Shown here piece by piece: positions 1,554 to 17,003 of a DNA stretch of 19,145 nt; the stretch's first letter is position 1; each line of letters begins with the position of its first letter. The stretch spans positions 1-19,145 of the forward strand of contig JAGQIY010000177.1 in NCBI GenBank assembly GCA_020430865.1, in the 5' to 3' direction. The DNA is from Myxococcales bacterium (GTDB lineage Bacteria; Myxococcota; Polyangia; Polyangiales; Polyangiaceae). The notes under the pieces were generated by a model. The model was given only the letters and a program-made list of their open reading frames with translations. It was not told the origin of the DNA and searched no databases. Position numbers and translations under genes: made by a program.

Positions 1554-1820
1554 TCGGACGGCGCCCGGCGCTCGTCCATTGCAGGGTCGGATTTCGCGTC
1601 TGATCACGGCTCCGACGTGGGACCACGCCCGCAGCACCCGACGGTCGTCGTCACGACTGACAGCCCCAGAGTTCTCCCTGAGCGCGCATCTGGTCACGCC
1701 TCCCCGGCCAGCCAGCGCGACGCTCAGCCCCGGAGATTGGGCCAGATCGGCCTCACCTCCAACAAACCGAACAAGTTCGCTATTTTTGGCGCGAGGCTCG
1801 CTGTAGTCTCGTGCGACAGT

Positions 1821-1836
1821 TGTGGGGTCACCCACA
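1821..1836 (+). promoter_or_regulatory. small hairpin in the leader of the giant TPR gene
   Basis: TGTGGG (1821-1826), loop GTCA, CCCACA (1831-1836), ending 55 bases before the ATG at 1892. It would lie in the 5' untranslated region if transcription starts in the AT-rich patch near 1790. A chance hairpin is quite possible. Confidence 0.2.
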
Positions 1837-1883
1837 CCCCCTGAGCGGAACCCGCGGTCGCTCCGTTCCCGCACAGTGCCCCC

Positions 1884-1890
1884 GAGGAAG
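1884..1890 (+). promoter_or_regulatory. ribosome binding site that decides the giant gene's start
   Basis: GAGGAAG at 1884-1890 sits just ahead of ATG 1892; GAGG ends four bases before the start. Spacing is short but usable. The upstream in-frame GTG at 1811 has no comparable site and would add 27 residues rich in Arg, Gly, His and Pro, unlike the helical protein that follows. Confidence 0.55.
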
Positions 1891-1891
1891 C

Positions 1892-4800
1892 ATGGATCTA
1901 GAGGCGCGTCTCAATAACCTGGAGAACTCCCACGAGTGGCATGCCATGGTCGAGGCCCTTGAACAGGGAATCGCCGGCGCCCAAGACGATGGGGTCAAGG
2001 CACAGCTTCACCTGAAGCTGGGTCGCTTGTTGCGTGATCGCTTCTTGCAAGGCGTCAAAGCACTCAAGCACTTCCAGGACGCTTTCAAGCTCAACAACCA
2101 GCTCACGGAGGCGCTCGAGGAAGCGCGCTCGGTCTACTGGGAGTTGGGCAAGCTCAACATGGTGCAGAAGCTGCTCGAGTTGCAGCTCAAGAACACCTCG
2201 GATGACGCCGCCGGTTCGGAGCTGTGCGTCCTTCTGGGCGACGTGCTGACCGACCAGGGCGACTACGATCGAGCGACCGAGGCCTACGCCAAGGCGCTCC
2301 AGCTTGCCGCGGGGCAACCCAGTCGGGCGAGCCAGATGCTGGAAGACGTACAGGTCGCGCCCGACCAGTGGCAGGATCACATCGGCACGCTACTACGGTC
2401 GGCGCATGGTGCGGACGACGCCAACGGGAAGGCGATCGCATTCCTCCGGGCGTCCCGCGTGGCCAGTCGCTTCGCCCCCGAAGAGGTCGAAGGGATCCTG
2501 GGGCAGGCCTACGCAGCGGATCCCTCCGGAACCGTTTCCGGTGCCCTCTTCGAGGGTTTCCTGGTGTCTCAGGATCGGACCGACTCAATCGTCGAGGCCC
2601 AGCGCAAGGTACTCGACTCCGACCTGGATGCGGCAACCAAGGCCGCGGTGGCCTACCGCTTCGGGGTGCGTTGGGCGACGCGTCACCAGAACCTGGATCT
2701 GGCCAAGAAGCTGTTCGAGGAATCGCTGAAGGCCGACCCGACGCGCGACGACGCGTTCAACTGCCTGCGAGAGATCTATGCCGCCGAGGGCAACACGGCT
2801 CGCAGTCTCGAGCTGGCGGAGCAAGTCGCTTCGAGTACGAACGGTGTGAATCACGCGGCGGCGCTGGCCGCAGCCGGGAGCATTGCCTGGCGGCAACAAG
2901 GCGACCTGATCCGGGCTCGAGGGTATTTCGAGCAACTGGCAGGTGTCTTCCCTACTCATCCAGCTTTGAAGGCGTTCGAGGCTCAGATCGGTGAAGAACT
3001 CGCTCCAGGAGATGCGGGGGCGGTCGTCGCGCAGGCCGAGGCCGACGAAGAGCTGGTGGTCGAGGAAGCAGGAGACGAGACCTCCGCGGCCGACCAGGCC
3101 GTGGATGAGGCTGGCGCTCCCGACGAGGCGGCGCTGGAGGTCGTCGAAGAGGAGCTGCCTGCCGAAGAGCTGGCCGACGTGCAGGAAGCGGATGATATCC
3201 CCGCGGAAGCTACGGGCGGCGACGAGGCCAAGATCGCGGAGCTGCGTGACCAGCTGGCCAAACAGGAAGAAGCCAAGCGCTATCACGAGTACGTGAAGAC
3301 TCTGATCGAGCTCGGTGACGAGGTGCAAGATCCTGTCGAGAGGGTGGAACTCTACACTCAGGCAGCCGACCTCTACGTCAACAAGTTCGTCAACCAGGCC
3401 GAGGCGGTGAAGACCTACGAGAAGGTGCTCGAGGTCGATCCGCAGAACGACGGCGCCATCGAGTACCTGCGGGGCATGTACGAGAAGCGGCGCGACTGGG
3501 AGAAGCTGATCGCGCTGCAGAAGTCGCAGGCCGACTTCCTGCCCGCTGGTCCCGAGCGCACCGCAGCCTACAAGGAGATGGCTCAGCTCGCGACCGAGCG
3601 CGTGAAGAAACCCGACGTGTGTATCGACCTTTGGGCCGTCGTGTTGAACAACGACCCGGACGACGTCGACGCACTGGGCTCCCTGGCGCAGCTCTACGAG
3701 CGCGCGCGCGACTACGAGAAGCTGGCCGATGTGCTGGAGAAGCAGGCCGATCTCACCTTCGACACCAAAGAGAAGATCGACATCCTGACCAAGCTGGGGC
3801 AGGTCACCGGGGATCGTCTCAAGGACGACGAGCGCGCGGTGGAAGCCTACCGCACGCTGCTCACGCTCCAACCGGACGACCGCCGCGCTCAGGAGCAACT
3901 CAAGAAGCGCTACGTTGCCCTGGGGAGATGGGACGATCTCGAGACGTTCTACCAGGACAGCGGTAAGTGGGACGAGTTCATCCGAGTCCTGGAGAGCAAC
4001 GAGTCGAAGACCAAGGATCCCGAGCAGAGCATCAAGATGCTCATCAAGATCGCCGAGCTCTGGATGACCCAGAAGGGCAAACCCGATCGGGCGGCCCGCG
4101 CGTACGAGAAGATCCTCTCCCTCGATGAGCAGAACCTCGACGCTGCCGAGCGACTGATCCCGATCTACGAGTCCGCGAACAACCCCAAGGGGCTGAGCGG
4201 GGCGATCGAGGTCAAGCTGGTTCACGAACAGAACCCCTCCGAGCGCCTGGACTTGCTGCGTCAGGTCGCTGCCCTCTACGAGGGGCGGATCAACGACAAG
4301 ACGAAGGCCTTCGAGCGCTACCTGGCTGCGTTCGAGTTGGAACCCTCGGACGAGCAGTGTCAGACGGATGTCGAGCGAGCGGCTCAGCAGATCGGCAGCT
4401 GGGACGCTCTGATCAACAGCTACCGCGCGGCAATCGAGAGCCTCACCGAGAGCGGTGACGCGATGGGTGCGATCAACCTGCGCTTGCGCCTGGGTCGTGT
4501 GCTCGTCGAGGAAGTCCAGCGCGTGGACGAAGCGCTGATCGAGTACCGCGCGGTATACGAACTGGAGCCCGAGAACGCCCAGGCGCTGAGCGCACTCGAG
4601 GGGCTCTATGCTCAGACCGAGCGCTGGTCAGATTTGCTCGAGGTCTACGGCAAGAAGCGCGACCTCGCGGTCGAGCCGGAGGAGCGCAAGCAGATCCTGT
4701 ACGGCATCGCGCGCTTGCACGAGGAGCGCCTGAGCGCGCTGGATCAGGCGATCGAGACTTACCGTGCGGTACTGGAAGACGACCCCGTGGACACCACGGC

Positions 4801-7800
4801 GCTCGAGGCGCTGGATCGCCTCTACAGCCAGACCGAGAACTGGGGACCCTACGCCGAGATCTTGTCGCGTCGCATCGAACTCGATGTGGGAGAGAACGAG
4901 CTCATCGACCTCAAGTTCCGACTGGCAAAGACCCAGCTCGAACAGCTCGACGACCCTGCTGCAGCGCTGGAGAACTACCGCGAGATCCTGTTCCTGAATC
5001 AGGACCACGAGGGCGCCCGGGCTGCGCTGGAAGGGCTCCTGGAGCACGAGACGCTAAGGGGAGAAGCCGCGTCCATCCTCGAAGCGATCTACGAGGCCAG
5101 AGGGGACTGGACCAAGTTGATCCACGCGTTGGAGATCTTGGTCCTGGCCGCTCCCGACGTGGATCGCCAGGTGGAGCTTCTGAGGCGTATCGCGCAGACC
5201 TCCGCGAATCAGCTCGGCGATCTCGAGAAGGCGTTCGATGCCCAGGCCCGTGCCGTGAAGGCGGATCCCGCGCACGGAGATGCGCGCTACGAGTTCGAAG
5301 GGCTCGCCCAGCAGGCGAATGCTTGGGAGCAGCTGCTCACCATCTACTCGGAGGTCGCCGAGGGACTCTCCGACTCGGACCTCGCTCGCAGCTACTGGAT
5401 GCGCCTCGCGTCCATCGAGGAGCAGCTTGGGAAGGTGGACGAGGCTGCGAAGGGCTACGAGCGCGTGCTCGCGCTCGATCCCGGTGATGCCGAAGCGCTG
5501 CAAGCCATGGACGCGTTGTACCGCGGACACGAGAAGTGGAGCGAGCTGATCGGCGTGTATCGTCGCCGCATCGAGCTCACTCAGGACGGCAGTGAGCGCG
5601 AGGGCCTGTACGCGCAAATGGCGCAGGTTTACGAGGAGCGCCTCGGACAGCCCGCAGACGCCATCGGGGCCTACCGTGAGGTGCTGGCCCTCGATCCAGC
5701 CAGCCAAGTGGCTCTTCGAGCCCTCGATGGCCTGTTCAGCCGCCAGAGCATGTGGCCAGAGCTGGCCGAGAACCTGGAGACGCAGCTCGGCCTGGCGGAG
5801 ACCGAGGACGAGCAGCTTGGCCTGATGTTGCGCCTGTCCGCCTTGCGAGAGCAGCAGATGGGCTTGGTCGAGGCCGCCATCGAAGGCTACCGCGAGGTGC
5901 TGGAGCGCGATCCAACCAACCAGGCAGCACTGAGTTCCCTCGAGCGCCTCGGGCGCGACCAGGCGCATGAGCTGATGATCGCCGAGATCCTCGAGCCGCT
6001 CTATCGTCAGCAGGGCGACTTCCAGAAGCTGATCGGCGTTCACGAGGTCCAGGTGCGACGTGCGGACGACGTCAATCGTCGGGTCGAGCTGCTGCACCAG
6101 ATCGCAGAGCTGTACGAGGACGCAGCGGGCGATTCGAACGCCGCCTTCGATACCCTGGCGCGCGCGCTCGCGGCAGACCCAGCTCACGAGTTCACCCAGG
6201 AAGGTCTGGATCGCCTCGCGCGGACTACAGGTCGCTTCACCGATCTGGCGCGTGTGTTCGAGGACCTGGGTGCGCAGCAAGAGGACCCGGAGCTGGGCAG
6301 CCAGCTCTATACCTTCGCCGCGCGCGTCTTCGTGAACGATGTGGGCGACGTGGATCGCGGCATCGAGCTGTTCCGCAAGGTACTGAGCATCGATCCCATG
6401 AACCTCGCCGCGGCTGAGTCGCTGCAGACCTTGTTCCATAGCACCGAGCGCTACTCGGACATGTCGCTGATCCTTCAGCGCAAGGCGCAGATCCTCGAGG
6501 ATATGGATGCCCAGAAAGAGGCGCTGTATCAGTCTGCGACCCTCGAGGAGGAGGTGCTGGACCGCAAGGAAAACGCCATCGGCGTCTATCAGAAGATCCT
6601 CGAGATCGACCCCGAGGACCTGCGAAGCGTGGACGCGCTGATCAACCTGTTCCTGGGTCTGTCGCGGTGGGAGGAACTGCTCGGCGTCTACAGCAAGAAG
6701 GCCGACTTGGTGATGGATACGGAGGAGCGCAAGCTCATCTACTACCAGGTCGGAGCGGTCTACGAGCGTGAGCTGTCCGATGTGACCCGAGCCATCGACA
6801 CGTATCAGCGCGTGCTCGAGCTCGATCCTGACGATCTGACGGCGCTGGGTCGACTCGACGTGCTGTACCAGAGCACCCAGAACTGGTCGGAGCTGCTCAG
6901 CGTGCTGACCCATGAGAGCGAGCTCACGGCGGACCCCGCGGAGGCGATCAGCTACCAGTACCGGATCGCCGAGCTGTACGAGAAGCACCTGGACGACGTC
7001 GCCAGGGCGGTTGAGCTCTACCGCGACATCCTGGGTATCCAGCCAGACCACGAGCCCACCTTGGCGGCCCTCGAAGGCATCAAGAACGGTGAGGTCGAGG
7101 CGCTCCTGGCCTCCAGCGTCTTGGAGCCTGTCTACGACGCCATGGGCGAGTGGGCGCGCCTCATCAGTGTGCTCGAGGTCCAGGTCCGGTTCGCGGACGA
7201 TCCCTTCAGCAAGGTGGACTTGCTCCACCGCATTGCGCGCCTCTACGAGGAGAACCTGGGACAGCACGCCGACGCGTTCCAGACGTATGCGCGCGCTGTG
7301 GCGGCGGACAACCAGAACGAGGAGTCCCTGGGGTCCCTCGAGCGGCTCGCGATGACCATCGAGCGTTGGCCCGCGGTGGCGGAGCTGTACGACCAGCAGC
7401 TCGCGACCTTGACCGACGAGCCAGAGCGCCTGGTGGAGCTTGGACTGCGTGTGGCGCAGGTCTACGAGGTTCAGCTCGAGGACGTCGACAGTGCGATCGC
7501 CCGCTACCGCAAGGTGCTCGAAGCCGACCCAGAGAACCAGAGCGCCGTGCGCTCGCTGGATCGTCTCTTCTCGCAGTCGGAGCGTTGGGCGGAGCTAGCG
7601 GACGTGCTGACCCGAGAGGCCGAGATCGGTCAGACCCCAGACGAGATCCTGGAGTTCAAGTATCGCCTCGGTCAGGTGTACCAGATGCGGCTCAACGATC
7701 TGGATCGCGCGATCGACGCCTATCGAGAGGTCATCGGTGCGGCGCCCGAGCACGTGGAGACCCTGGAGGCGCTGGAGTCTCTCTTCGCCATGGGCACGAA

Positions 7801-10800
7801 GCAGCTCGAGATCGCCGAGATCCTGGAGCCGCTCTACCAGTCCACCGCGGAGTGGGAGAAGTTGATCCGCGTTCACGAGGCTCAGCTCGCCCACACCCAG
7901 GACGCGGACGAGCGCATGAACATGTACTACCGCATCGCAGAGGATGCGGAAGAGCGTTTGATGGATCCCTATCAGGCGTTCAACGTGTACGTGCGCGCGA
8001 TCAAGGAGCGTCCGCTCGACGAGCGCACGGGTGAGGACATCGAACGCCTCGCCGCGATGATCGACGGTGGCTGGGAGCAGCTCGCGAATGCCTACGCCGA
8101 CGTGCTTGGCATCGAAGGACTCCCGGTGGAGACACAGGCTGCAGTCGGAAAGCGGCTGGCACGGGTGTTCGAAGAGGAGCTGGCGGATGTGACGAAGGCG
8201 GAGGAGACTTACCGCTACGTCTTGTCGGTTGCACCTGGTGACCAGGACTCGCTCGCCAACCTCGACCGCATCTACTCCTCCCTGGAGCAGTACGCGGAGC
8301 TCGCTGGAGTCCTGGAGCAGCGCGCGGTCGGCGCGGAAGAGCACGAGCAAGTCGAGCTGTGGGGACGTCTGGGGCAGGTGTACGAGGAGGCGCTGCAGCG
8401 CATCCCGGATGCCATCCGCGCGTACCGCAAGATCTTCGACGAGCTGGAGCCAAGCAACGAGGAAGCCATCGCCGCTCTGGGGCGCATCTACGAGCAGACC
8501 GAGGACTGGGAAGCCCTGAACAAGGTCTACGAGCGTGAGATGGAGACGGCTGTTGGCGACGTCGCGGAGGCGGAGATCCGCGCCAAGATGGCGCACCTGG
8601 CTGCTTCTCGCTTGGGTCGCATCGATGACGCGGTCGAAGGCTGGAAGCGGGTGCTCGACTTGCGGGGTGAGGATCCCGAGGCCCTCAACGCTCTGGCGGG
8701 CCTGTATCAGCACTTGGGCCAGTGGGCGGAGCTCACCGACGTTCTCGAGCGTCAGTTCGACATCGCCGAGGACGACGAGGAGCGCGTCAACGTGCTCACC
8801 AATCGCGCACGTCTGTTCATCGAACAGCTCGGCCGGGACGATGAGGCGCTCGAGACCTGGCAGCGTGTGCTGGACATCGACTATGCGAACCTCCCCGCGC
8901 TGCGCGCCGTCGCTCAGATCTGGCGCACGCGAGAAGACGCACAGGAGTTGGTCAGCGCTCTCCACGCGATGATCGATCGGGCTGCGGCGTTGCTCGAGGC
9001 CGACGAACTCAAGGAGGTCTACCGCGAGCTAGGTCAGACCTACGGCGTCAAGCTGGAGCAGCCGTACGACGCGGCAGACGCCTGGCGTCAGCTGCTCGAG
9101 GTCGATCCCTTCGACTTCGAGGCCATGGCGGAGCTCGAGAAGATCTACCGCCTCGACGAGAAGTGGCCCGAGGTCGTCGACGTGAAGATGCAGCGCGCGG
9201 AGGCCCTGCAGGAGCCCGAGGAGAAGATCCGCGAGCTACTCGAGGTCACCCAGATCTGGAAGAAGGAGGTCAACGACTACGATCAGGCCACGGCCGCCTT
9301 CGAGAAGATCCTGACCATCGATCCCGCCCATACCGAGGCCTTCGAGGCGCTGGAGCGTCTCCACACGGCAGCGGGCCGCTGGGAACCGCTGATCGAGCTG
9401 TACCTGAACCGTCTCGAGACCCGGGAGGACGTGGACGAACGTGGCGATCTCCTGCGGCGCATCGCGCAGGTCTGCGAAGTCCATCTCCAGGATCCGGATC
9501 AGGCGTTCGTGGGCTTGCTCGAGGCCTTCGGAGAGAACTACTCGGACGACGAAACCGTGCGCTACCTCGAGCGCATGGCCCAGCAGACCAACCGCTGGCC
9601 CGAGCTGATCCAGAACGCCAATCAGTGGCTCCAGGAGACCGAAGATCCGCAGCAGAAGATCATGCTCTGCCTGCGTCTCGGCAAGTGGTACGGCGAGGAC
9701 CTGGGGCACTTCGACTACGCGAAGCCCTACTACGCCCAGATCATGCAGCTCGACCCGAACAACGTTCAGGTCTTGCGGCAGATGGCCAACATCCACCGCA
9801 TCGGTGCCCAGTGGCAGAAGATGGGCGAGATGCTGACTCGTGCGTTGGACGTCGCGGTGAGCAGCGAAGATCGCAAGGCCATCCTGTGCGACCTCGGTGA
9901 GCTTCTCGACAAGCACATGGGCGAGACGGACAAGGGGATCTCGTTCTACAAGCGGGCGCTCGAAGTCGATCCGCTGTGCATGCCTGCGCTCGAAGCGCTC
10001 GAGCGCATCTATGACGAGCGGGGTAACCATCAAGAGCTGGTCGAGATTCTGAGCCGCAAGGTGCAAGGCCTCGAGGACTCGGATCGCATCGCTCAACACA
10101 AGCTCCGGATGGGCGGTCTGTACGAGACGGCGCTGGGCGACTTGGAGCGAGCCGGGCGTCAGTACCGCGAGGTACTGGAACTCGACGGCGGCAACCTCTT
10201 TGCGATGCGCGGCCTGGAGCGGATCTACGAGGCGACCCAGAACTGGAACGAGTTGGTCGACGTGCTCGAGCGTCAGCTCGACGTCGTCGAGACCGAGCGA
10301 GAGCGAGTGAGTGTGTTGCTCAAGCTGGCGTTGATCCAGGAGGAGCAGTTCCTCAAGGCAGACATCGCCGCGCAGCGCCTGGAGCAAGCGCTGGAGATCG
10401 ACCCGGCGGACGCCCGGGCGTATGTCGCTCTCGAGCGCTGCTATCGTCGCCTGAAGCAGTGGCTCGACCTCATCAACACCTACGAGCGTCACATCAGCGA
10501 GGCGGCTTCGACCGACGACAAGATCGAGCTCTACGGTCAGATCGCTCAAGTCTACAGCGACGAGGTGGGTGATACGGATCGCGCCATCGACGCCTATCAG
10601 AACATCGTCGATCTCGATGACACCAACATCCCAGCGCTCGAGGCGTTGAGTCGGCTGTACGAGAAGCAAGAAGATCCGGCGCGCGCCATCGAGAACATGA
10701 CGCGAGTCGCCGATCTGACCACGGACGGCGGCCAGCGCGTGGAGATGTATTTCCGCATCGGCACCGCGCTCGAGCAGCAGCTGGGCGACCGCATCACCGC

Positions 10801-13231
10801 GCAAGAGCGCTTCGAGATGGCGCTCGACCTGAACCCGGCTCACCTGCCGTCCCTGGCCGCCCTCCGCACCATTGCGATGGACGAAGCGGACTGGGATCGC
10901 GCGGCGCGCTACCTCGACCAGGAGCAGCTCAACACCGAGATGCCCCGTCAGCGCGCCAAGCTACTGGTGGAGCTCGGCAAGCTACGTGACGAGATGCTGG
11001 GTGAGCACGAGGCCGCCATCGAGGCCTATCAGCTGGCGATGCAGTGCGACGACGACTGCGAGGAGGCCGCGCTTCCTCTCGTCGAGGAGTACATGCGAAC
11101 CGAGCGCTTCCAGGAGGCGGAGCCGCTCGCGGAGCTCCTGGTTCGCAAGGGACGCAATCGTGAGCGCCACGAGCAGCACATGCTGAACAACTTGCTCGGC
11201 AAGGTGCTCTCGGCGGTGGGCAAGGACGAGAAGGCGCTCAAGGCCTATCAGGCCGCGCACCAGCTCGACCTCACGGATCAGGAGACGATCCGCGGGATCG
11301 CCGACGTGTCGTTCAGGCTCCAGGACTGGCCCAGCGCGCTGACCAACTACCAGAAGGTGCTCACCTCGCTCGGAGAGGACGAGGTCGATCAGCGCACGGA
11401 CGTCTACTACCGCCTCGGCTGCATCAAGCGTGAGCAGCAGCAGGTGAAGCAGGCGATCAACAACTTCGAGAAGGCGCTCGCGCTGAACTCGGAGCACCGC
11501 CCGACGCTCGAGGCGCTGGTGGAGGTCTACGCTCAGGCCAACGACTTCAAGCAAGTCGCGGCATACAAGCGGCAGATCCTCGATGGCATCTTCGATGGTG
11601 AAGAGCGCTTCGTCTTGCTCAATGACATCGCCGATGTCTGGGCTGGCAAGGAGAACAACGCGCCGAAGGCCATCGAGGCCCTCGAGGAGGCCCTGGAGCT
11701 GAAGCCTCAGGACCCGTCGCTGCTGCACAAGATCCTCGAGCTGTACCAGAAGGCCGAGGACTGGTCGAAGATGGTCGATACGCTGCAAGCGATCGCCGAC
11801 ATCAGCGACAGCGCGCAGGTCAAGTCGCGTTGCTTCAACACCATGGCGCAGCTCTATCGCGACAAGCTCGAGGATCCCGATCGCGCGGTCGAGCTGTTCA
11901 ACGAAGCGCTGGATCTGAACCCCGACTTCCTGAAGGCCTTCGAGCGCATCAACAAGATCCTGACACGCGAGAAGAACTGGAAGCAGCTCGAGCGCCAGTA
12001 CCGGAAGATGATCCACCGCGTCACCAACAAGGGGAAGGCGGACCTGGAGTACACGCTGTGGCACCAGCTCGGGTTGATCTATCGCGATCGTCTCCAGGAA
12101 ATGGAGAGCGCGGTGGGCGCTTTCAAGATGGCCTCCACCACCAAGCCCGATTCGCTCATGGATCGTCAGATCTTGAGCGAGCTCTACGAGGGTACGGAGC
12201 GCTTCGATGAAGCCATCGAGGAGCAGCGGAAGATCCTCGATCACAACCCACTGGACATCGATCCCTACCGGGCGCTCTACCGCCTCTACTTGCACAAGCA
12301 CAGCTACGACGAAGCGTGGACCCTGGCGGCGGCCATCGCCTTCATGGGCAAGGCAGACCAGGAGGAGATGCAGTTCTACGAGGACTACCGGCCTCAAGGC
12401 ATGCTGCAGGTGAAGGGGAGGCTCTCGAACGATCTCTGGACGCGGCAGCTGTTCCATCCGGACCTGAACCTCTACATCTCGAAGATCTTCGAGATGATCG
12501 TTCCCGCCGCCTTGAAGGCGAAGGTCGCGATGATGGCTCGTCAGCAGTCGCCCATCGATCCCCGCTTCAAGCAAGATCCAGCGACTTCGACGGTTACCTT
12601 CGCCAAGACCTTCGGCTGGGCAGGACAGGTGCTCGGTTTGAGCACGCCCGAGCTCTACGTTCGAAGCGACGTGAACGATGCTATCCGTGCGGTACCGCAC
12701 CTGCCTCCTGCATCGCTGGCGGGCAAAGCGGTGCTATCCGGGTTCCAGCCTCAGGAGCTGACGTTCATCTGCGGCAAGCACCTCGCGTCTTACCGACCCG
12801 AGATCTACATGCGGAACCTGTTCCCCACCCAGGCGGAGCTCACCGTGTTGCTGTTCGCTGGCGTGATGATCTCGGCGCCGAACACGCCGATGCCGCCAGA
12901 GAACGCGACGCAGATCCGCAACACCGCGCAGGAGCTGGCCAAGTACATGGATCCGGTGCAGATGGAGCACCTGCGCGCGGTCGTGAAGCGCTTCATCGAA
13001 GAAGGCGCGAAGGCCAACATCAAGCGCTGGGTCCAGGCAGCAGAGCTGACTCAGCTGCGTGCGGGCCTCCTCGTTTGCGGTGACCTCAGCATCGCTCGCA
13101 AGATCATCACCATGGAGCCAGCGATGCCTGGTGATCTGTCCCCAGAGGAGAAGATCAAGGAACTGTTGCTGTTCAGCGTGAGCGAGGAGTACGCCCAGCT
13201 GCGCAGCGCTCTGGGGATCGCGATCGGCTGA
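1892..13231 (+). CDS. giant TPR scaffold protein with C-terminal degenerate M48-like domain, 3,779 aa
   Basis: Likely a very large cytoplasmic protein-interaction scaffold; no signal peptide or membrane segment is visible. Residues 1-370 hold a first TPR block, 371-448 an acidic Ala/Glu/Asp linker, about 449-3482 a continuous TPR array, and about 3485-3779 a non-TPR domain. The array uses 36-residue helix pairs arranged as 72-residue doubles: [A-L-x-x-L-x-x-L-Y...W-x-x-L] followed by [E-R...Y-x-x-V-L-x-x-D-P]. For example L-Y-A-Q-T-E-R-W (4604) and L-Y-S-Q-T-E-N-W (4820) are exactly 216 bp apart. Dividing length by 36 gives roughly 90 TPR-sized units. The C-terminal domain resembles M48 zinc peptidases but lacks the catalytic motif (see findings). 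Start chosen at ATG 1892 with GAGGAAG upstream. Myxococcus AgmK/GltI of the gliding machinery is also a giant TPR protein; that link is only a hypothesis. Long leftward frames across this gene are shadows. Confidence 0.95.
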   Translation: MDLEARLNNLENSHEWHAMVEALEQGIAGAQDDGVKAQLHLKLGRLLRDRFLQGVKALKHFQDAFKLNNQLTEALEEARSVYWELGKLNMVQKLLELQLKNTSDDAAGSELCVLLGDVLTDQGDYDRATEAYAKALQLAAGQPSRASQMLEDVQVAPDQWQDHIGTLLRSAHGADDANGKAIAFLRASRVASRFAPEEVEGILGQAYAADPSGTVSGALFEGFLVSQDRTDSIVEAQRKVLDSDLDAATKAAVAYRFGVRWATRHQNLDLAKKLFEESLKADPTRDDAFNCLREIYAAEGNTARSLELAEQVASSTNGVNHAAALAAAGSIAWRQQGDLIRARGYFEQLAGVFPTHPALKAFEAQIGEELAPGDAGAVVAQAEADEELVVEEAGDETSAADQAVDEAGAPDEAALEVVEEELPAEELADVQEADDIPAEATGGDEAKIAELRDQLAKQEEAKRYHEYVKTLIELGDEVQDPVERVELYTQAADLYVNKFVNQAEAVKTYEKVLEVDPQNDGAIEYLRGMYEKRRDWEKLIALQKSQADFLPAGPERTAAYKEMAQLATERVKKPDVCIDLWAVVLNNDPDDVDALGSLAQLYERARDYEKLADVLEKQADLTFDTKEKIDILTKLGQVTGDRLKDDERAVEAYRTLLTLQPDDRRAQEQLKKRYVALGRWDDLETFYQDSGKWDEFIRVLESNESKTKDPEQSIKMLIKIAELWMTQKGKPDRAARAYEKILSLDEQNLDAAERLIPIYESANNPKGLSGAIEVKLVHEQNPSERLDLLRQVAALYEGRINDKTKAFERYLAAFELEPSDEQCQTDVERAAQQIGSWDALINSYRAAIESLTESGDAMGAINLRLRLGRVLVEEVQRVDEALIEYRAVYELEPENAQALSALEGLYAQTERWSDLLEVYGKKRDLAVEPEERKQILYGIARLHEERLSALDQAIETYRAVLEDDPVDTTALEALDRLYSQTENWGPYAEILSRRIELDVGENELIDLKFRLAKTQLEQLDDPAAALENYREILFLNQDHEGARAALEGLLEHETLRGEAASILEAIYEARGDWTKLIHALEILVLAAPDVDRQVELLRRIAQTSANQLGDLEKAFDAQARAVKADPAHGDARYEFEGLAQQANAWEQLLTIYSEVAEGLSDSDLARSYWMRLASIEEQLGKVDEAAKGYERVLALDPGDAEALQAMDALYRGHEKWSELIGVYRRRIELTQDGSEREGLYAQMAQVYEERLGQPADAIGAYREVLALDPASQVALRALDGLFSRQSMWPELAENLETQLGLAETEDEQLGLMLRLSALREQQMGLVEAAIEGYREVLERDPTNQAALSSLERLGRDQAHELMIAEILEPLYRQQGDFQKLIGVHEVQVRRADDVNRRVELLHQIAELYEDAAGDSNAAFDTLARALAADPAHEFTQEGLDRLARTTGRFTDLARVFEDLGAQQEDPELGSQLYTFAARVFVNDVGDVDRGIELFRKVLSIDPMNLAAAESLQTLFHSTERYSDMSLILQRKAQILEDMDAQKEALYQSATLEEEVLDRKENAIGVYQKILEIDPEDLRSVDALINLFLGLSRWEELLGVYSKKADLVMDTEERKLIYYQVGAVYERELSDVTRAIDTYQRVLELDPDDLTALGRLDVLYQSTQNWSELLSVLTHESELTADPAEAISYQYRIAELYEKHLDDVARAVELYRDILGIQPDHEPTLAALEGIKNGEVEALLASSVLEPVYDAMGEWARLISVLEVQVRFADDPFSKVDLLHRIARLYEENLGQHADAFQTYARAVAADNQNEESLGSLERLAMTIERWPAVAELYDQQLATLTDEPERLVELGLRVAQVYEVQLEDVDSAIARYRKVLEADPENQSAVRSLDRLFSQSERWAELADVLTREAEIGQTPDEILEFKYRLGQVYQMRLNDLDRAIDAYREVIGAAPEHVETLEALESLFAMGTKQLEIAEILEPLYQSTAEWEKLIRVHEAQLAHTQDADERMNMYYRIAEDAEERLMDPYQAFNVYVRAIKERPLDERTGEDIERLAAMIDGGWEQLANAYADVLGIEGLPVETQAAVGKRLARVFEEELADVTKAEETYRYVLSVAPGDQDSLANLDRIYSSLEQYAELAGVLEQRAVGAEEHEQVELWGRLGQVYEEALQRIPDAIRAYRKIFDELEPSNEEAIAALGRIYEQTEDWEALNKVYEREMETAVGDVAEAEIRAKMAHLAASRLGRIDDAVEGWKRVLDLRGEDPEALNALAGLYQHLGQWAELTDVLERQFDIAEDDEERVNVLTNRARLFIEQLGRDDEALETWQRVLDIDYANLPALRAVAQIWRTREDAQELVSALHAMIDRAAALLEADELKEVYRELGQTYGVKLEQPYDAADAWRQLLEVDPFDFEAMAELEKIYRLDEKWPEVVDVKMQRAEALQEPEEKIRELLEVTQIWKKEVNDYDQATAAFEKILTIDPAHTEAFEALERLHTAAGRWEPLIELYLNRLETREDVDERGDLLRRIAQVCEVHLQDPDQAFVGLLEAFGENYSDDETVRYLERMAQQTNRWPELIQNANQWLQETEDPQQKIMLCLRLGKWYGEDLGHFDYAKPYYAQIMQLDPNNVQVLRQMANIHRIGAQWQKMGEMLTRALDVAVSSEDRKAILCDLGELLDKHMGETDKGISFYKRALEVDPLCMPALEALERIYDERGNHQELVEILSRKVQGLEDSDRIAQHKLRMGGLYETALGDLERAGRQYREVLELDGGNLFAMRGLERIYEATQNWNELVDVLERQLDVVETERERVSVLLKLALIQEEQFLKADIAAQRLEQALEIDPADARAYVALERCYRRLKQWLDLINTYERHISEAASTDDKIELYGQIAQVYSDEVGDTDRAIDAYQNIVDLDDTNIPALEALSRLYEKQEDPARAIENMTRVADLTTDGGQRVEMYFRIGTALEQQLGDRITAQERFEMALDLNPAHLPSLAALRTIAMDEADWDRAARYLDQEQLNTEMPRQRAKLLVELGKLRDEMLGEHEAAIEAYQLAMQCDDDCEEAALPLVEEYMRTERFQEAEPLAELLVRKGRNRERHEQHMLNNLLGKVLSAVGKDEKALKAYQAAHQLDLTDQETIRGIADVSFRLQDWPSALTNYQKVLTSLGEDEVDQRTDVYYRLGCIKREQQQVKQAINNFEKALALNSEHRPTLEALVEVYAQANDFKQVAAYKRQILDGIFDGEERFVLLNDIADVWAGKENNAPKAIEALEEALELKPQDPSLLHKILELYQKAEDWSKMVDTLQAIADISDSAQVKSRCFNTMAQLYRDKLEDPDRAVELFNEALDLNPDFLKAFERINKILTREKNWKQLERQYRKMIHRVTNKGKADLEYTLWHQLGLIYRDRLQEMESAVGAFKMASTTKPDSLMDRQILSELYEGTERFDEAIEEQRKILDHNPLDIDPYRALYRLYLHKHSYDEAWTLAAAIAFMGKADQEEMQFYEDYRPQGMLQVKGRLSNDLWTRQLFHPDLNLYISKIFEMIVPAALKAKVAMMARQQSPIDPRFKQDPATSTVTFAKTFGWAGQVLGLSTPELYVRSDVNDAIRAVPHLPPASLAGKAVLSGFQPQELTFICGKHLASYRPEIYMRNLFPTQAELTVLLFAGVMISAPNTPMPPENATQIRNTAQELAKYMDPVQMEHLRAVVKRFIEEGAKANIKRWVQAAELTQLRAGLLVCGDLSIARKIITMEPAMPGDLSPEEKIKELLLFSVSEEYAQLRSALGIAIG
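5009..7889 (+). repeat. four hinge modules embedded in the TPR array
   Basis: A variant unit, with core [IV]-L-E-[AP]-[LIV]-Y followed by [GE]-[DE]-[WF]-x-[KR]-L-I and then L-L-x-x-I-A in most copies, begins its core at nt 5075, 5987, 7118 and 7820 (protein residues 1062, 1366, 1743, 1977). Spacings are 304, 377 and 234 residues. The first module is about 89 residues, 17 longer than the standard 72-residue double repeat. The outer limits given are approximate. Confidence 0.75.
12344..13228 (+). other. C-terminal pseudo-peptidase (M48-like) domain of the giant TPR protein
   Basis: Seen: after the last TPR (about residue 3482) comes a domain with P-E-L-Y-V-R, then N-D-A, then Q-E-L-T-F-I-C-G-K-H-L-A-S (E at 3622, K-H-L-A-S at 3629-3633), and later W-V-Q-A-A-E-L-T-Q-L-R-A-G-L-L (W3713, E3718). 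Known: M48 peptidases have P-E-[VL]-Y-V, N-A-F, E-L-x-x-V-L-A-H-E-L-x-H, and W-x-R-x-x-E-x-x-A-D-R-A-G-L-L in this order. Inferred: this is an M48 fold that lost both His and the catalytic Glu of HExxH and the Asp of ExxxD, keeping only the third-ligand Glu. Confidence 0.65.
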
Positions 13232-13457: not shown

Positions 13458-14231
13458 TCAGTGTCCTGGCAGGTCGAGACGCATGCGGAACCCGAAGATG
13501 GCTTGCCACTCCAGCGCGCCCCCCGGCGTTTCGCCATCGGAGCGGCTGACGTTCCGGGTGATATCGGCGCCAAGGAAGGGACCAAGGCCGAACTGCTTGG
13601 CAAGCATCCAGTCACCACCGAGCATGAGGTGCGCCACCACACCGCCATAGGTGACCGAGCCCTCGTCGAGCTCGAGCTTGGAGCTGCGGTAGCCGAGGCC
13701 CGCCATCGCGTAGGGATCGAAGCGCAGCCCCTGCACCAGGAAGTAGCTGGCCTGTAGCCCCGCCGCCCAGCTCGACAGCGAGCAGTCGGTGCAGTCCGGG
13801 TCATCGCCTCCGAACGCGCTGAACTGGCCCCACACACCAACCGCGACGTTGCGGTGGACCCCGTAGGCAAGCTGGGCGTCTAACCCCCAACCCGAGCTGA
13901 GGAGATCGTTGCTGTAGCGACCCGCCTCGATGCTTCCGAAGGGGAGGCTCAGGTAGCCACCGACGCCGGCGAGGAAATGACCGCTGCGCTGGTCGGTGGC
14001 GGGAGGGATCTTCGGCGGCTCGGGCTCGCTGTCGTCCTCGATGTCCTCTGGGGGCGCCTCTGCAACCTCGCCGTTGCCCCGACCCAGGCCCGGATCGAGG
14101 CTCGCCGAGCCGTCCAGTTCCTCGACGTCGTCCTGGGCCAGCGCCAGGCCAGGGAGCGTTCCGAGCAGCAGCCCAGCCAGCAGGCCGAGGACCAAACGCG
14201 GTGGCGCGCTCGCGGGTTTCCAGCCGATCAT
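13458..14231 (-). CDS. predicted outer-membrane beta-barrel protein, 257 aa
   Basis: Probably a small outer-membrane barrel of the OmpA/OmpW-like size class; no ligand can be assigned. Residues 1-32 form a Sec signal peptide with a hydrophobic core (RLVLGLLAGLLLGTLPG) and predicted cleavage after A-L-A (residue 32, before QDD). Residues 33-80 are an acidic, Pro-rich disordered segment. From about residue 84 to the end there are alternating Gly/aromatic strands (H-F-L-A-G-V-G-G-Y-L-S-L, W-G-L-D-A-Q-L-A-Y-G, Y-A-M-A-G-L-G-Y-R), consistent with about eight beta strands. A Cys pair C147/C150 (D-C-T-D-C) lies in what would be a loop. The last strand (A-I-F-G-F-R-M-R-L-D-L) is followed by P-G-H rather than a terminal Phe. 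No strong ribosome site precedes the ATG. Divergent from the FHA regulator, so co-regulation is possible. Confidence 0.88.
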   Translation of the reverse strand: MIGWKPASAPPRLVLGLLAGLLLGTLPGLALAQDDVEELDGSASLDPGLGRGNGEVAEAPPEDIEDDSEPEPPKIPPATDQRSGHFLAGVGGYLSLPFGSIEAGRYSNDLLSSGWGLDAQLAYGVHRNVAVGVWGQFSAFGGDDPDCTDCSLSSWAAGLQASYFLVQGLRFDPYAMAGLGYRSSKLELDEGSVTYGGVVAHLMLGGDWMLAKQFGLGPFLGADITRNVSRSDGETPGGALEWQAIFGFRMRLDLPGH

Positions 14232-14472: not shown

Positions 14473-15744
14473 ATGAGTCGGAGAGACGAGACCCAGGAGC
14501 TGCTGTGCGCTTCGCCGAGCGGCGCCTGGCTGATGGAAGTGACCACGCCAGCGCAGTCGTCCGTGGTGCGTATCGAACGCGGTCAGAACCTGATCCTGGG
14601 CAGCGCCGACGCGTGTGACGTGCTGATCGGCGATCCGACGGTGAGCGCACGGCACGCGGAACTGTGTTGGGGTGAGGACGGACTGGAGGTCAGGGATCTC
14701 GACTCGACGAATGGGCTGCGAGTTGGTTCCGCGAGGGTAAGAGGTGCGAAGCTGCTGGCCTCGGGAAGTCACTTCCAGCTTGGCCGGACGCTCGTGGTGC
14801 TGAGGAGCGAGGAGCCCGACGAGGCGGAGGCGAAGTTCGAGCCGGTGCCGGGCATCGTCGGGAACTCGGCTGCCATGCGGCGTGTGGCGCTGGAGATCCG
14901 GCGCGCCGCTCCGCTCAAGGCTCCAGTGCTGGTCGTTGGCGAGAGCGGCACGGGCAAGGACTTGGTGGCGACGGCGTTGCATCAGCTCTCCCAGCGTGGC
15001 GGTATGCTGGTGCCCCTTAACATGGGGAGCCTTACCGAGGGTTTGGCCGACGCCGACCTGTTTGGGCACACGCGCGGCGCGTTCACGGGCGCCATCGCCC
15101 AGCGCAGCGGAGCATTCGTGCTGGCCCACGGGGGAACGCTCTTCCTCGACGAGATCGCCGACCTGAGCCCGGGCCTTCAGGTGAAGCTGCTGCGAGTGGT
15201 CGAAGACGGCAGAGTGCGAGCCCTCGGGTCTACCGAGCATCGAGAGGTCGATGTGCGCGTGGTGTCGGCGACCTGGGCGAATCTGCACGAAAGGGTGGAG
15301 CAAGGTCGGTTCCGGGAGGATCTGTTGCACCGGATCTCCACGCTACTGATCCGCTTGCCACCGCTCCGGCAACGCAAGTCCGACATCGCCGCGCTGAGTC
15401 GCACCTTGCTCGCTCGCTACGCCGTCGAGTTTGGCGAGCTCAATCTGACGGACGCCGCGCTCTCGGGCTTGATGAGTCATGACTGGCCAGGAAACGTCCG
15501 CCAGCTGGGAAGTGTGCTCTATCGCTGCGCCCTGATGGCTCGCGCCGGGACGATCACGGCTCCAGACGTAGCGCAGGCCATTGGTTCGACGGCGCAACGT
15601 GCGAAGCCGGTCGCGTCCCCGGTGGATGCGCTGCGCGTCCTCAAGCAGCACGGCGGGAACGTGAGCGCGGCCGCCAGGGCGCTGCGCGTGCCGCGGAGTA
15701 CGTTTCGCGCCTGGTTGGAGCGAGCCGAGAACAGCGCGGCCTGA
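14473..15744 (+). CDS. FHA-domain sigma-54-dependent enhancer-binding transcription activator, 423 aa
   Basis: Activates RNA polymerase-sigma54 promoters by ATP hydrolysis, with an FHA domain in place of a response-regulator receiver. FHA spans about residues 32-112: L-G-S (42-44), S58, R60-H61, and D-S-T-N-G (77-81). The usual Gly-Arg phospho-Thr contact is L-G-S here, so Arg is missing. AAA+ core about 125-370: Walker A G-E-S-G-T-G-K (156-162), N183 at the Glu-switch place, G-A-F-T-G-A sigma54 loop (202-207), Walker B T-L-F-L-D-E (222-227), arginine-finger segment G-R-F-R-E-D-L (278-284), sensor [10 protein letters not shown] (338-345). A Fis-type helix-turn-helix covers 388-418. All catalytic motifs are intact. 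The FHA domain implies control by Ser/Thr kinase signalling, as for other myxobacterial activators of this type. Targets are unknown; the divergent barrel gene is the nearest candidate. Confidence 0.95.
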
Positions 15745-15806: not shown

Positions 15807-17003
15807 CTAGAAGGCGCTACCGAAGGCGAAGCCCTTGTAGGTGTCGGTGATGACTGGGCTCGCGTAGGCGCGAGGGGCCCGCTTGCGCGTGGCGCTGGAC
15901 TCCGTCTTCTTTGCCGTCAGGAAATACCCTCCGACGATCACGCCAGCGCCAATTCCGGCAGCGACGAAGCCAACCGTGGCGACGGTCTTCTGCGTGTCTC
16001 CGGCGTCCACGTTGTCCTGCCACTTGGAGCACGCCTCCGCGTAGTGGGCGTAGACGGGGTTGGTCGGGGTGCAAGGCGGCGAGTTCGTACGGAAGTCCTG
16101 GTTTTTGCTGATTTCTTCCATCGTCGGCTCGCGTTGGGTCTCCGCGAAGATGGCCTCTCGGATACTGTCCGCGTCGCTGTAGTTGGCGCTCGAGGTCAGC
16201 GCGAAGACGACGCCGCTGATCAAGCCCACGACGACGAGGCCACCGCCGACGTAGGCCACGGGGCTCTTCTTGGCCCAGTCGATGAATGGCTCGCGGTTTC
16301 CGGCGGTGCTGACAGAGAAGCCGTTACCATCGTCCGGCGGAGGCTGCGGTCCGGTGCTGCCGCCCTCGGGTGGCGGAGTCGTTCCAGGGCCCCCGGCGGT
16401 TGGGCCGACTCCGACCGGGGCAGGGGCGCCTCCGAACGCCAGAGTCTGGGGAGAGGAGCCGCCCGCCACGGCGGTCACGTCCAGAACGGCGCTGTCCGAG
16501 CCCTTGCGTGCCTCCAGCTTGTGATTCCCCGGGGAAAGGTAGATCGGAGCGGGGAGCGGCGCGGTGCCCACTGGCTCCCCGTCGACGAACACCTGAGCGC
16601 CGGTGGGGGCAGTCACCGGCACGGACGCTACCTTGGCCTTGGCTGCCTCGAGCCCCTTCTGCGCCTCGCTGCGCTCGGCAGCGGATGCGGAGGGGTTCTC
16701 TCGCAGGAACTGATCGAAGTGCTGAGCGGCGTCCGCCTCATGCCCCGAACGCAGCTCGCTCTGCGCGAGGTTGAGCAAGACGGACGGGTGCTTCTTCAGC
16801 GCGTAGGCCTGAAGGAACGCGGCCCTTGCCTTCTCGTAGTCCTTCGCGTCGTAGTACTGGACGCCCTCCTGGAAGCGCTGGCGCGCCATCTCGGTCATCG
16901 CGTCTGCGCTCTGGGCGTGAGCCGTGCTGGAAACCAGTAAGGGCGCGGCGCACGCAGCGCTCAAGGTGAGGGCGAAAGCGAGGGAGTAAGCGCGGGTTCT
17001 CAT
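15807..17003 (-). CDS. TPR and PEGA-domain membrane protein, 398 aa
   Basis: Envelope protein of unknown job; similar proteins are frequent in myxobacteria. Residues 1-30 form a signal peptide with cleavage after A-H-A. TPRs lie at about 38-106 (V-Q-Y-Y-D-A-K-D-Y-E-K-A-R, then H-P-S-V-L-L-N-L-A-Q). A PEGA domain covers about 128-190, marked by A-P-T-G-A-Q-V-F-V-D-G-E-P-V-G (132-146); PEGA folds are small beta modules thought to bind envelope surfaces. A Gly/Pro-rich linker (191-225) leads to hydrophobic segments at 249-270 and 341-363, which flank a loop with C311 and C325. The tail is basic (K-K, R-K-R) and ends G-F-A-F-G-S-A-F. With a cleaved signal and two membrane passes the basic tail would be periplasmic, against the positive-inside rule, so topology is unsure. 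ATG 17003 has GAGG five bases upstream. Confidence 0.9.
   Translation of the reverse strand: MRTRAYSLAFALTLSAACAAPLLVSSTAHAQSADAMTEMARQRFQEGVQYYDAKDYEKARAAFLQAYALKKHPSVLLNLAQSELRSGHEADAAQHFDQFLRENPSASAAERSEAQKGLEAAKAKVASVPVTAPTGAQVFVDGEPVGTAPLPAPIYLSPGNHKLEARKGSDSAVLDVTAVAGGSSPQTLAFGGAPAPVGVGPTAGGPGTTPPPEGGSTGPQPPPDDGNGFSVSTAGNREPFIDWAKKSPVAYVGGGLVVVGLISGVVFALTSSANYSDADSIREAIFAETQREPTMEEISKNQDFRTNSPPCTPTNPVYAHYAEACSKWQDNVDAGDTQKTVATVGFVAAGIGAGVIVGGYFLTAKKTESSATRKRAPRAYASPVITDTYKGFAFGSAF

Follow-up and report, generated by a model that had tools for sequence, protein, structure and literature searches.

The window analysed here, a stretch of 19,145 nucleotides from a Myxococcales bacterium of the Polyangiaceae (contig JAGQIY010000177.1 of assembly GCA_020430865.1), encodes a giant tetratricopeptide repeat (TPR) protein whose C-terminal domain is supported, by profile comparison, predicted fold and the register of its motifs, as a degenerate M48 (gluzincin) peptidase fold. 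We favour, at a probability of roughly 0.6, the reading that this degenerate fold sits at the end of a probably cytosolic TPR scaffold and acts there as a protein- or peptide-binding cap. An earlier note on the same DNA had described the domain as an apparently dead M48 metallopeptidase capping a TPR solenoid; its placement proved accurate, since with the ATG at 1892 K-H-L-A-S falls on residues 3629–3633, the retained Glu on 3718 and the Leu of the second motif on 3722.

Kinship of the domain with M48 peptidases

Searches with single sequences and with library models gave little. For the window's domain alone, neither Pfam nor NCBIfam nor the PDB sequences yielded a match at E up to 10, and a PDB sequence search with a profile of 61 family rows also returned no match. 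PF01435, the M48 model, was reported for one of the 61 family members (E 0.19) and was over the cut-off in none, and no Pfam or NCBIfam model matched more than one of the 61, each at chance level. Profile–profile comparison (hhalign) of the 61 rows with 11 Myxococcota M48 rows, all 11 of which match PF01435 at E <= 10, revealed a probability of 98.4 and an E of 8.8e-15, with both motifs in register. Because this comparison set had been found partly through the domain itself, the alignment was repeated with four intact M48 proteins found via PF01435, which gave a probability of 96.5 and E 8e-10, against 0.2 and E 0.38 for the reversed alignment and E 0.14 for the best of 60 other open frames as null controls. 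The match to HtpX proteins was weak (E 0.022) and three further M48 or M48-like sets (L079, L082 and L086/L091) were null; the kinship thus appears, from these alignments, to be with one branch of M48.

A further link came from L148, an intact Myxococcota M48 protein picked up by the domain profile, which carries HELGH and WMRKAELSCDRAGLL and matches Pfam M48 with 65 bits. BLASTP of the window's domain against L148 aligned the second motif over 54 residues (pairwise E 6e-7), and side-by-side alignment with intact M48 proteins placed the P-x-L-Y strand, the HExxH helix and the W..xxE.T..RAGLL helix in register. The M48 order of motifs that the earlier note had read from the letters therefore stood for the P-E-L-Y strand and for both motifs, but its N-x-A is not a feature of the family: in 121 giant rows, drawn from 120 of the 473 proteins that match the domain at E <= 1e-3 (the window's own among those 120, the query being counted twice), Asn 3595 occurs in 6 and Pro in 95.

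The AlphaFold model of the domain (predicted local distance difference test 95.8, predicted template modelling score 0.92) had its best fold matches, with middling scores, in Ste24, BepA and other M48/M56-type peptidases; no unrelated fold emerged from this structural comparison, which the earlier note had proposed. In VIA-align the top 18 rows, among the families that it lists, were all M48, M56 or minigluzincin entries. Foldseek E-values were weak (best 0.12, none below 0.001), and these values, the silent library searches and the weak or null results with HtpX and the three further sets are what would be expected if an unrelated helical domain merely shared a few words with M48. Such a chance likeness was rejected by means of the reversed and unrelated controls and is very improbable in view of the two hhalign results, the VIA-align rows and the register of both motifs with L148.

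Loss of the zinc site and conservation of the giant

Residues at the old active site were counted in 138 distinct rows (168 before removal of duplicates), three of which (L072, L073 and L135) lack the stretch that corresponds to HExxH. HExxH was present in none of the 138. In place of the first zinc His, 82 rows have Lys and 50 have Arg; the catalytic Glu (3630) is replaced by His in 103 and kept in 3; the second zinc His is kept in 6; and the third ligand position (3718) is mostly acidic, with 79 Glu and 53 Asp. In the second motif (ExxxD), Asp is retained in 16, including 13 of 13 rows of the kinase class described below, and the three M48 zinc ligands never occurred together in 148 family rows. 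The replacement of the zinc His residues and the catalytic Glu, noticed first in the window, is hence shared by the homologues, and as far as the sequences sampled tell, the zinc ligands and the catalytic Glu are lost throughout the clade. The His-Pro of the HPx4R plug, described for BepA and PF01435 (PMC7950410), was found in the tail of one of the 148 family rows, is absent in the window, and is present in five of five intact M48 rows.

In the giants the replaced site is nearly fixed: position 3629 is Lys in 117 and Arg in 4 of the 121 rows, 3630 is His in all, and 3718, the Glu whose retention had been pointed out, is Glu in 120. Loss of the Asp at 3722 is likewise general, but the Leu reported in its place is a local state (Leu in 5 rows, the window's among them, and Cys in 96). 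Altogether 54 of the 295 positions of the domain, including His 3630 and Glu 3718, are identical in at least 120 of 121 rows, indicating strong constraint.

Lys or Arg at the first His combined with Glu or Asp at the third ligand was seen in 128 of the 135 rows in which both positions are filled. Their placement in the M48 fold suggests a putative ion pair where the zinc sat; the pairing is no evidence of covariation, because each of the two states is almost fixed. Lys 3629, His 3630 and Glu 3718 might alternatively form another metal site or support another chemistry, so that the domain would still be an enzyme. Strong retention of Lys/Arg, His and Glu/Asp, with His 3630 in 121 of 121 giants, speaks for this possibility, but position 3630 differs from His in 32 of the 138 distinct rows, with Ala, Gln and Asn among the replacements, and is uncovered in 3, the full set of zinc ligands is nowhere present, and we know of no peptidase of M48 fold that works without the His pair; continued catalysis is accordingly unlikely.

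No TPR-linked member with an intact HExxH in the domain was found in the 148 rows, the 168 rows (138 distinct) or the 121 giant rows, and no intact HExxH in the domain in 120 shorter proteins (120 of 340 matches). Since the profile behind these rows was built from dead members, a low-scoring active TPR-linked member could be missed; profiles of dead members nonetheless found five intact M48 proteins. The L128 open frame contains HEEEH outside the domain, and a Polyangium protein found via PF01435 (L094, G004:C10:7491-7907:-) has an intact HELGH in an open frame of 1,957 amino acids.

The domain lies in frame with the rest of the giant (12344–13228 within 1811–13231, open in a single frame). 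Pfam assigned 20 families to the protein, mostly TPR and well over their cut-offs (TPR_8 247.3 bits, TPR_7 243.3 bits), and a self-trained repeat profile revealed 46 repeats, 43 of which score positive; 24 of 45 spacings are 70–76 residues long. Because spacings of this length are read as pairs of TPRs, the earlier figure of roughly 90 units is a fair estimate, the repeats actually counted being 46. Named relatives of the giant belong to Polyangia, Polyangiaceae and Myxococcales, and 106 of the 119 other homologues among the matches listed are 3,700–3,900 amino acids long. In 40 full-length relatives taken from these 106 (every second of the better-scoring ones), median identity was 68.5% in the C-terminal domain and 69.1% in the rest; the giant is constrained along its entire length, and the idea that the domain forms its conservation peak was rejected. 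A gene broken by decay was also rejected, because relatives share the same losses and identity is high over about 3,780 residues. No export signal was seen by eye in the N-terminus, and the scaffold is probably cytosolic. Antisense open reading frames of up to 737 amino acids lie within the gene (window positions 2585–12700, minus strand), as expected for high-GC coding DNA.

Distribution and possible role of the domain

In a survey of 377 Myxococcota genomes drawn from a larger group, with at most six candidates scored per genome, the domain profile matched 204 at E <= 0.01. Twelve of these matched only at E >= 1e-5; seven of the 12 were inspected and yielded one intact M48 and six members of a second dead group. 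Taking off the 12 leaves a clear member in 192 of the 377 genomes, often more than one, although one gene can yield two matches. Among the matches listed, which are part of the total, open frames with the domain ranged from a few hundred to 4,654 amino acids, some being cut by contig ends. This profile search was of Myxococcota; a scan of genome contigs for close relatives, which also covered other phyla, revealed 74 loci with titles that were myxobacterial or unresolved ("delta", "Proteobacteria"). The source of one shorter protein with the domain (P0147, partial) gives it the label Candidatus Nanopelagicales.

Besides the giants, the domain occurs in Ser/Thr kinase–TPR proteins and in shorter proteins. 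In the class of about 1,800 amino acids, to which 13 rows were assigned, Pkinase was found in all 11 tested (L171, L176–L182 and L184–L186), and kinase, TPR and dead M48 domain share open frames of 1,770–1,952 amino acids (for example L171:247-5874:-). In proteins of about 500 amino acids (L161, L162 and L192–L195), the dead M48 domain is combined with a conserved N-terminus of helical appearance and a stretch resembling a coiled coil; Pfam reported no TPR in the four scanned (L161, L162, L194 and L195). A TerB-like reading of this N-terminus found no support in Pfam. Six further proteins (L168, L170 and L187–L190) have a conserved N-terminal region of about 230 amino acids that by eye resembles a caspase in which both catalytic positions have changed; it had no Pfam match and three PDB matches (E 0.34–0.89), none of them a caspase. 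Defence families gave weak matches only, over short stretches (PDC-S48, 3.7e-5 and 4e-4; PDC-M71B, 0.007), and the N-terminus of the L177 kinase showed a weak EAD7 match (E 6e-6; 26.3 bits, below the cut-off of 32).

A quick tree of 88 rows placed 77 family rows in one clade (Shimodaira–Hasegawa-like approximate likelihood ratio test 100, stem 2.43), separate from five intact M48 rows and six other M48 rows without HExxH. For this tree the number of giants was reduced by identity, L135 and short fragments were left out and class labels were set by hand, and the program warns of long branches. The second dead group (L143–L147 and L149; for example L143:967-1887:+) comprises open frames of 307–384 amino acids from Myxococcota that match PF01435 without HExxH and, like L148, belongs to the 11 rows first compared by hhalign; its first His is replaced by Arg, once by Gln, and its DRAG motif is kept. 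The two dead groups may have lost the zinc site once or twice.

For the domain of the giant we infer a binding, capping or scaffold role. Following the favoured reading, the domain would be unable to bind catalytic zinc or cut peptides; Lys or Arg in place of the first zinc His would pair with the kept third-ligand Glu or Asp and keep the core intact in the absence of metal. The former substrate groove or surface could then anchor one partner where the solenoid ends, other partners being bound by the TPRs; in kinase paralogues the domain might serve for substrate docking or connect the kinase with the same network. The presence of the domain on kinases as well as giants fits a binding or regulatory function, though it is no proof of one. 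Non-proteolytic use of an M48 groove has a precedent in the edge strand of BepA, which is also needed for its chaperone-like role (PMC8423444). Weighing against a reading in which peptides lie in the groove, the strand matched to the edge strand of BepA ranks fourth in variability among 17 elements.

The main rival of a binding role is a mere end cap, in which the dead domain only seals and stabilises the hydrophobic end of the solenoid and has no ligand. The domain ends within about 22 residues of the end of the open frame in the family rows listed, its conservation is no higher than that of the TPRs, and the putative edge strand is poorly conserved, all of which agree with such a cap. However, it also ends the proteins of about 500 amino acids in which Pfam reported no TPR, and the 54 near-invariant positions seem more than a plain cap would need; we consider a purely structural function rather improbable, and retain the partner-binding cap as the preferred reading. 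More speculatively, Myxococcota may own a phylum-wide dead-M48 family, with an ion pair replacing zinc, that serves giant TPR scaffolds, eukaryote-like kinases and further signalling proteins as a shared C-terminal docking module, the giant being a hub that joins paralogues and clients; this wider picture is tentative.

Gene context and comparison with known systems

Features of the giant gene and of the three genes downstream are collected in Table 1. The neighbour counts given there are approximate, because they derive from single-linkage clusters of open frames in 75 loci; downstream sequence exceeds 3 kb in 61 of these.

Table 1 Features of the 19,145-nucleotide window, with residues numbered from the ATG at 1892.
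Feature	Position	Strand	Basis or remark
Giant TPR protein, 3779 amino acids	1892..13231	+	Likely ATG start at 1892; GAGG upstream at 1884-1887
TPR solenoid, residues 115-3453 (first to last repeat with positive score)	2234..12250	+	Pfam and self-trained repeat profile; commonest spacing about 72 residues
Pseudo-M48 domain, residues 3485-3779, about 295 amino acids	12344..13228	+	Homology, AlphaFold model, fold matches
P-E-L-Y, residues 3586-3589, first core strand	12647..12658	+	P and L in 121/121 rows, Y in 120/121; strand 103-106 in the model
K-H-L-A-S, residues 3629-3633, place of HExxH	12776..12790	+	Within helix 136-148 of the domain; alignments and model
W-V-Q-A-A-E-L-T-Q-L-R-A-G-L-L, residues 3713-3727, place of second M48 motif	13028..13072	+	Glu 3718 retained; Asp absent
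Lys 3754, invariant in 121 rows	13151..13153	+	Paired by hhalign with Arg of the M48 HPx4R plug; plug His-Pro lost
Outer-membrane beta-barrel protein	13458..14231	-	Pfam OMP_b-brl
FHA and sigma-54 activator	14473..15744	+	Pfam; open-frame cluster in 43/75 relatives' loci
TPR protein with weak PEGA match	15807..17003	-	Pfam; open-frame cluster in 44/75 relatives' loci

The analysis gives a conserved domain without a fitting Pfam or NCBIfam model an origin and a set of testable residues, and offers a handle on proteins of about 3,780 amino acids that databases name only "tetratricopeptide repeat protein" or "golgin subfamily B member 1". It also adds a bacterial case of a peptidase fold that probably came to serve in binding and is carried by scaffolds as well as kinases. 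Kinases abound in this phylum; Minicystis rosea has 360 protein kinases (PMC8436480). The domain is of a known kind, the pseudopeptidase; the family itself was not found in the searchable literature, subscription papers lying outside the scope of the search.

Metallopeptidase pseudoenzymes that lost catalysis and gained binding have been reviewed (PMC11266112), in an article whose main text does not contain the term "M48". Inactive zincin-like effector domains of bacterial conflict systems, mentioned for iSTAND2 systems (PMC8195603), resemble the present family in placing a dead zincin on multidomain signalling proteins, although "M48" is absent from the main text of that article as well and no STAND NTPase is among the Pfam matches of the giant. 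With M48 peptidases (PF01435; Ste24/ZMPSTE24, HtpX, 3c37) the domain shares the predicted fold over domain residues of about 44–292, the position of the HExxH helix and the second-motif helix W..xxE.T..RAGLL, but differs in having no HExxH, Lys or Arg for the first His, mostly His for the Glu, a second-motif Asp that is mostly lost, no His-Pro plug, and TPRs in front. The nearest relatives with HExxH that were found are the intact Myxococcota M48 proteins (L148, and L078, L080, L081 and L083), open frames of 321–483 amino acids with their own HExxH, ExxxD and His-Pro plug. In the periplasmic BepA (YfgC) of E. coli, a domain of four TPR motifs follows the peptidase and the zinc site is intact (PMC7950410), whereas in the giant the order is reversed, about 90 TPRs stand in front, and the site is dead.

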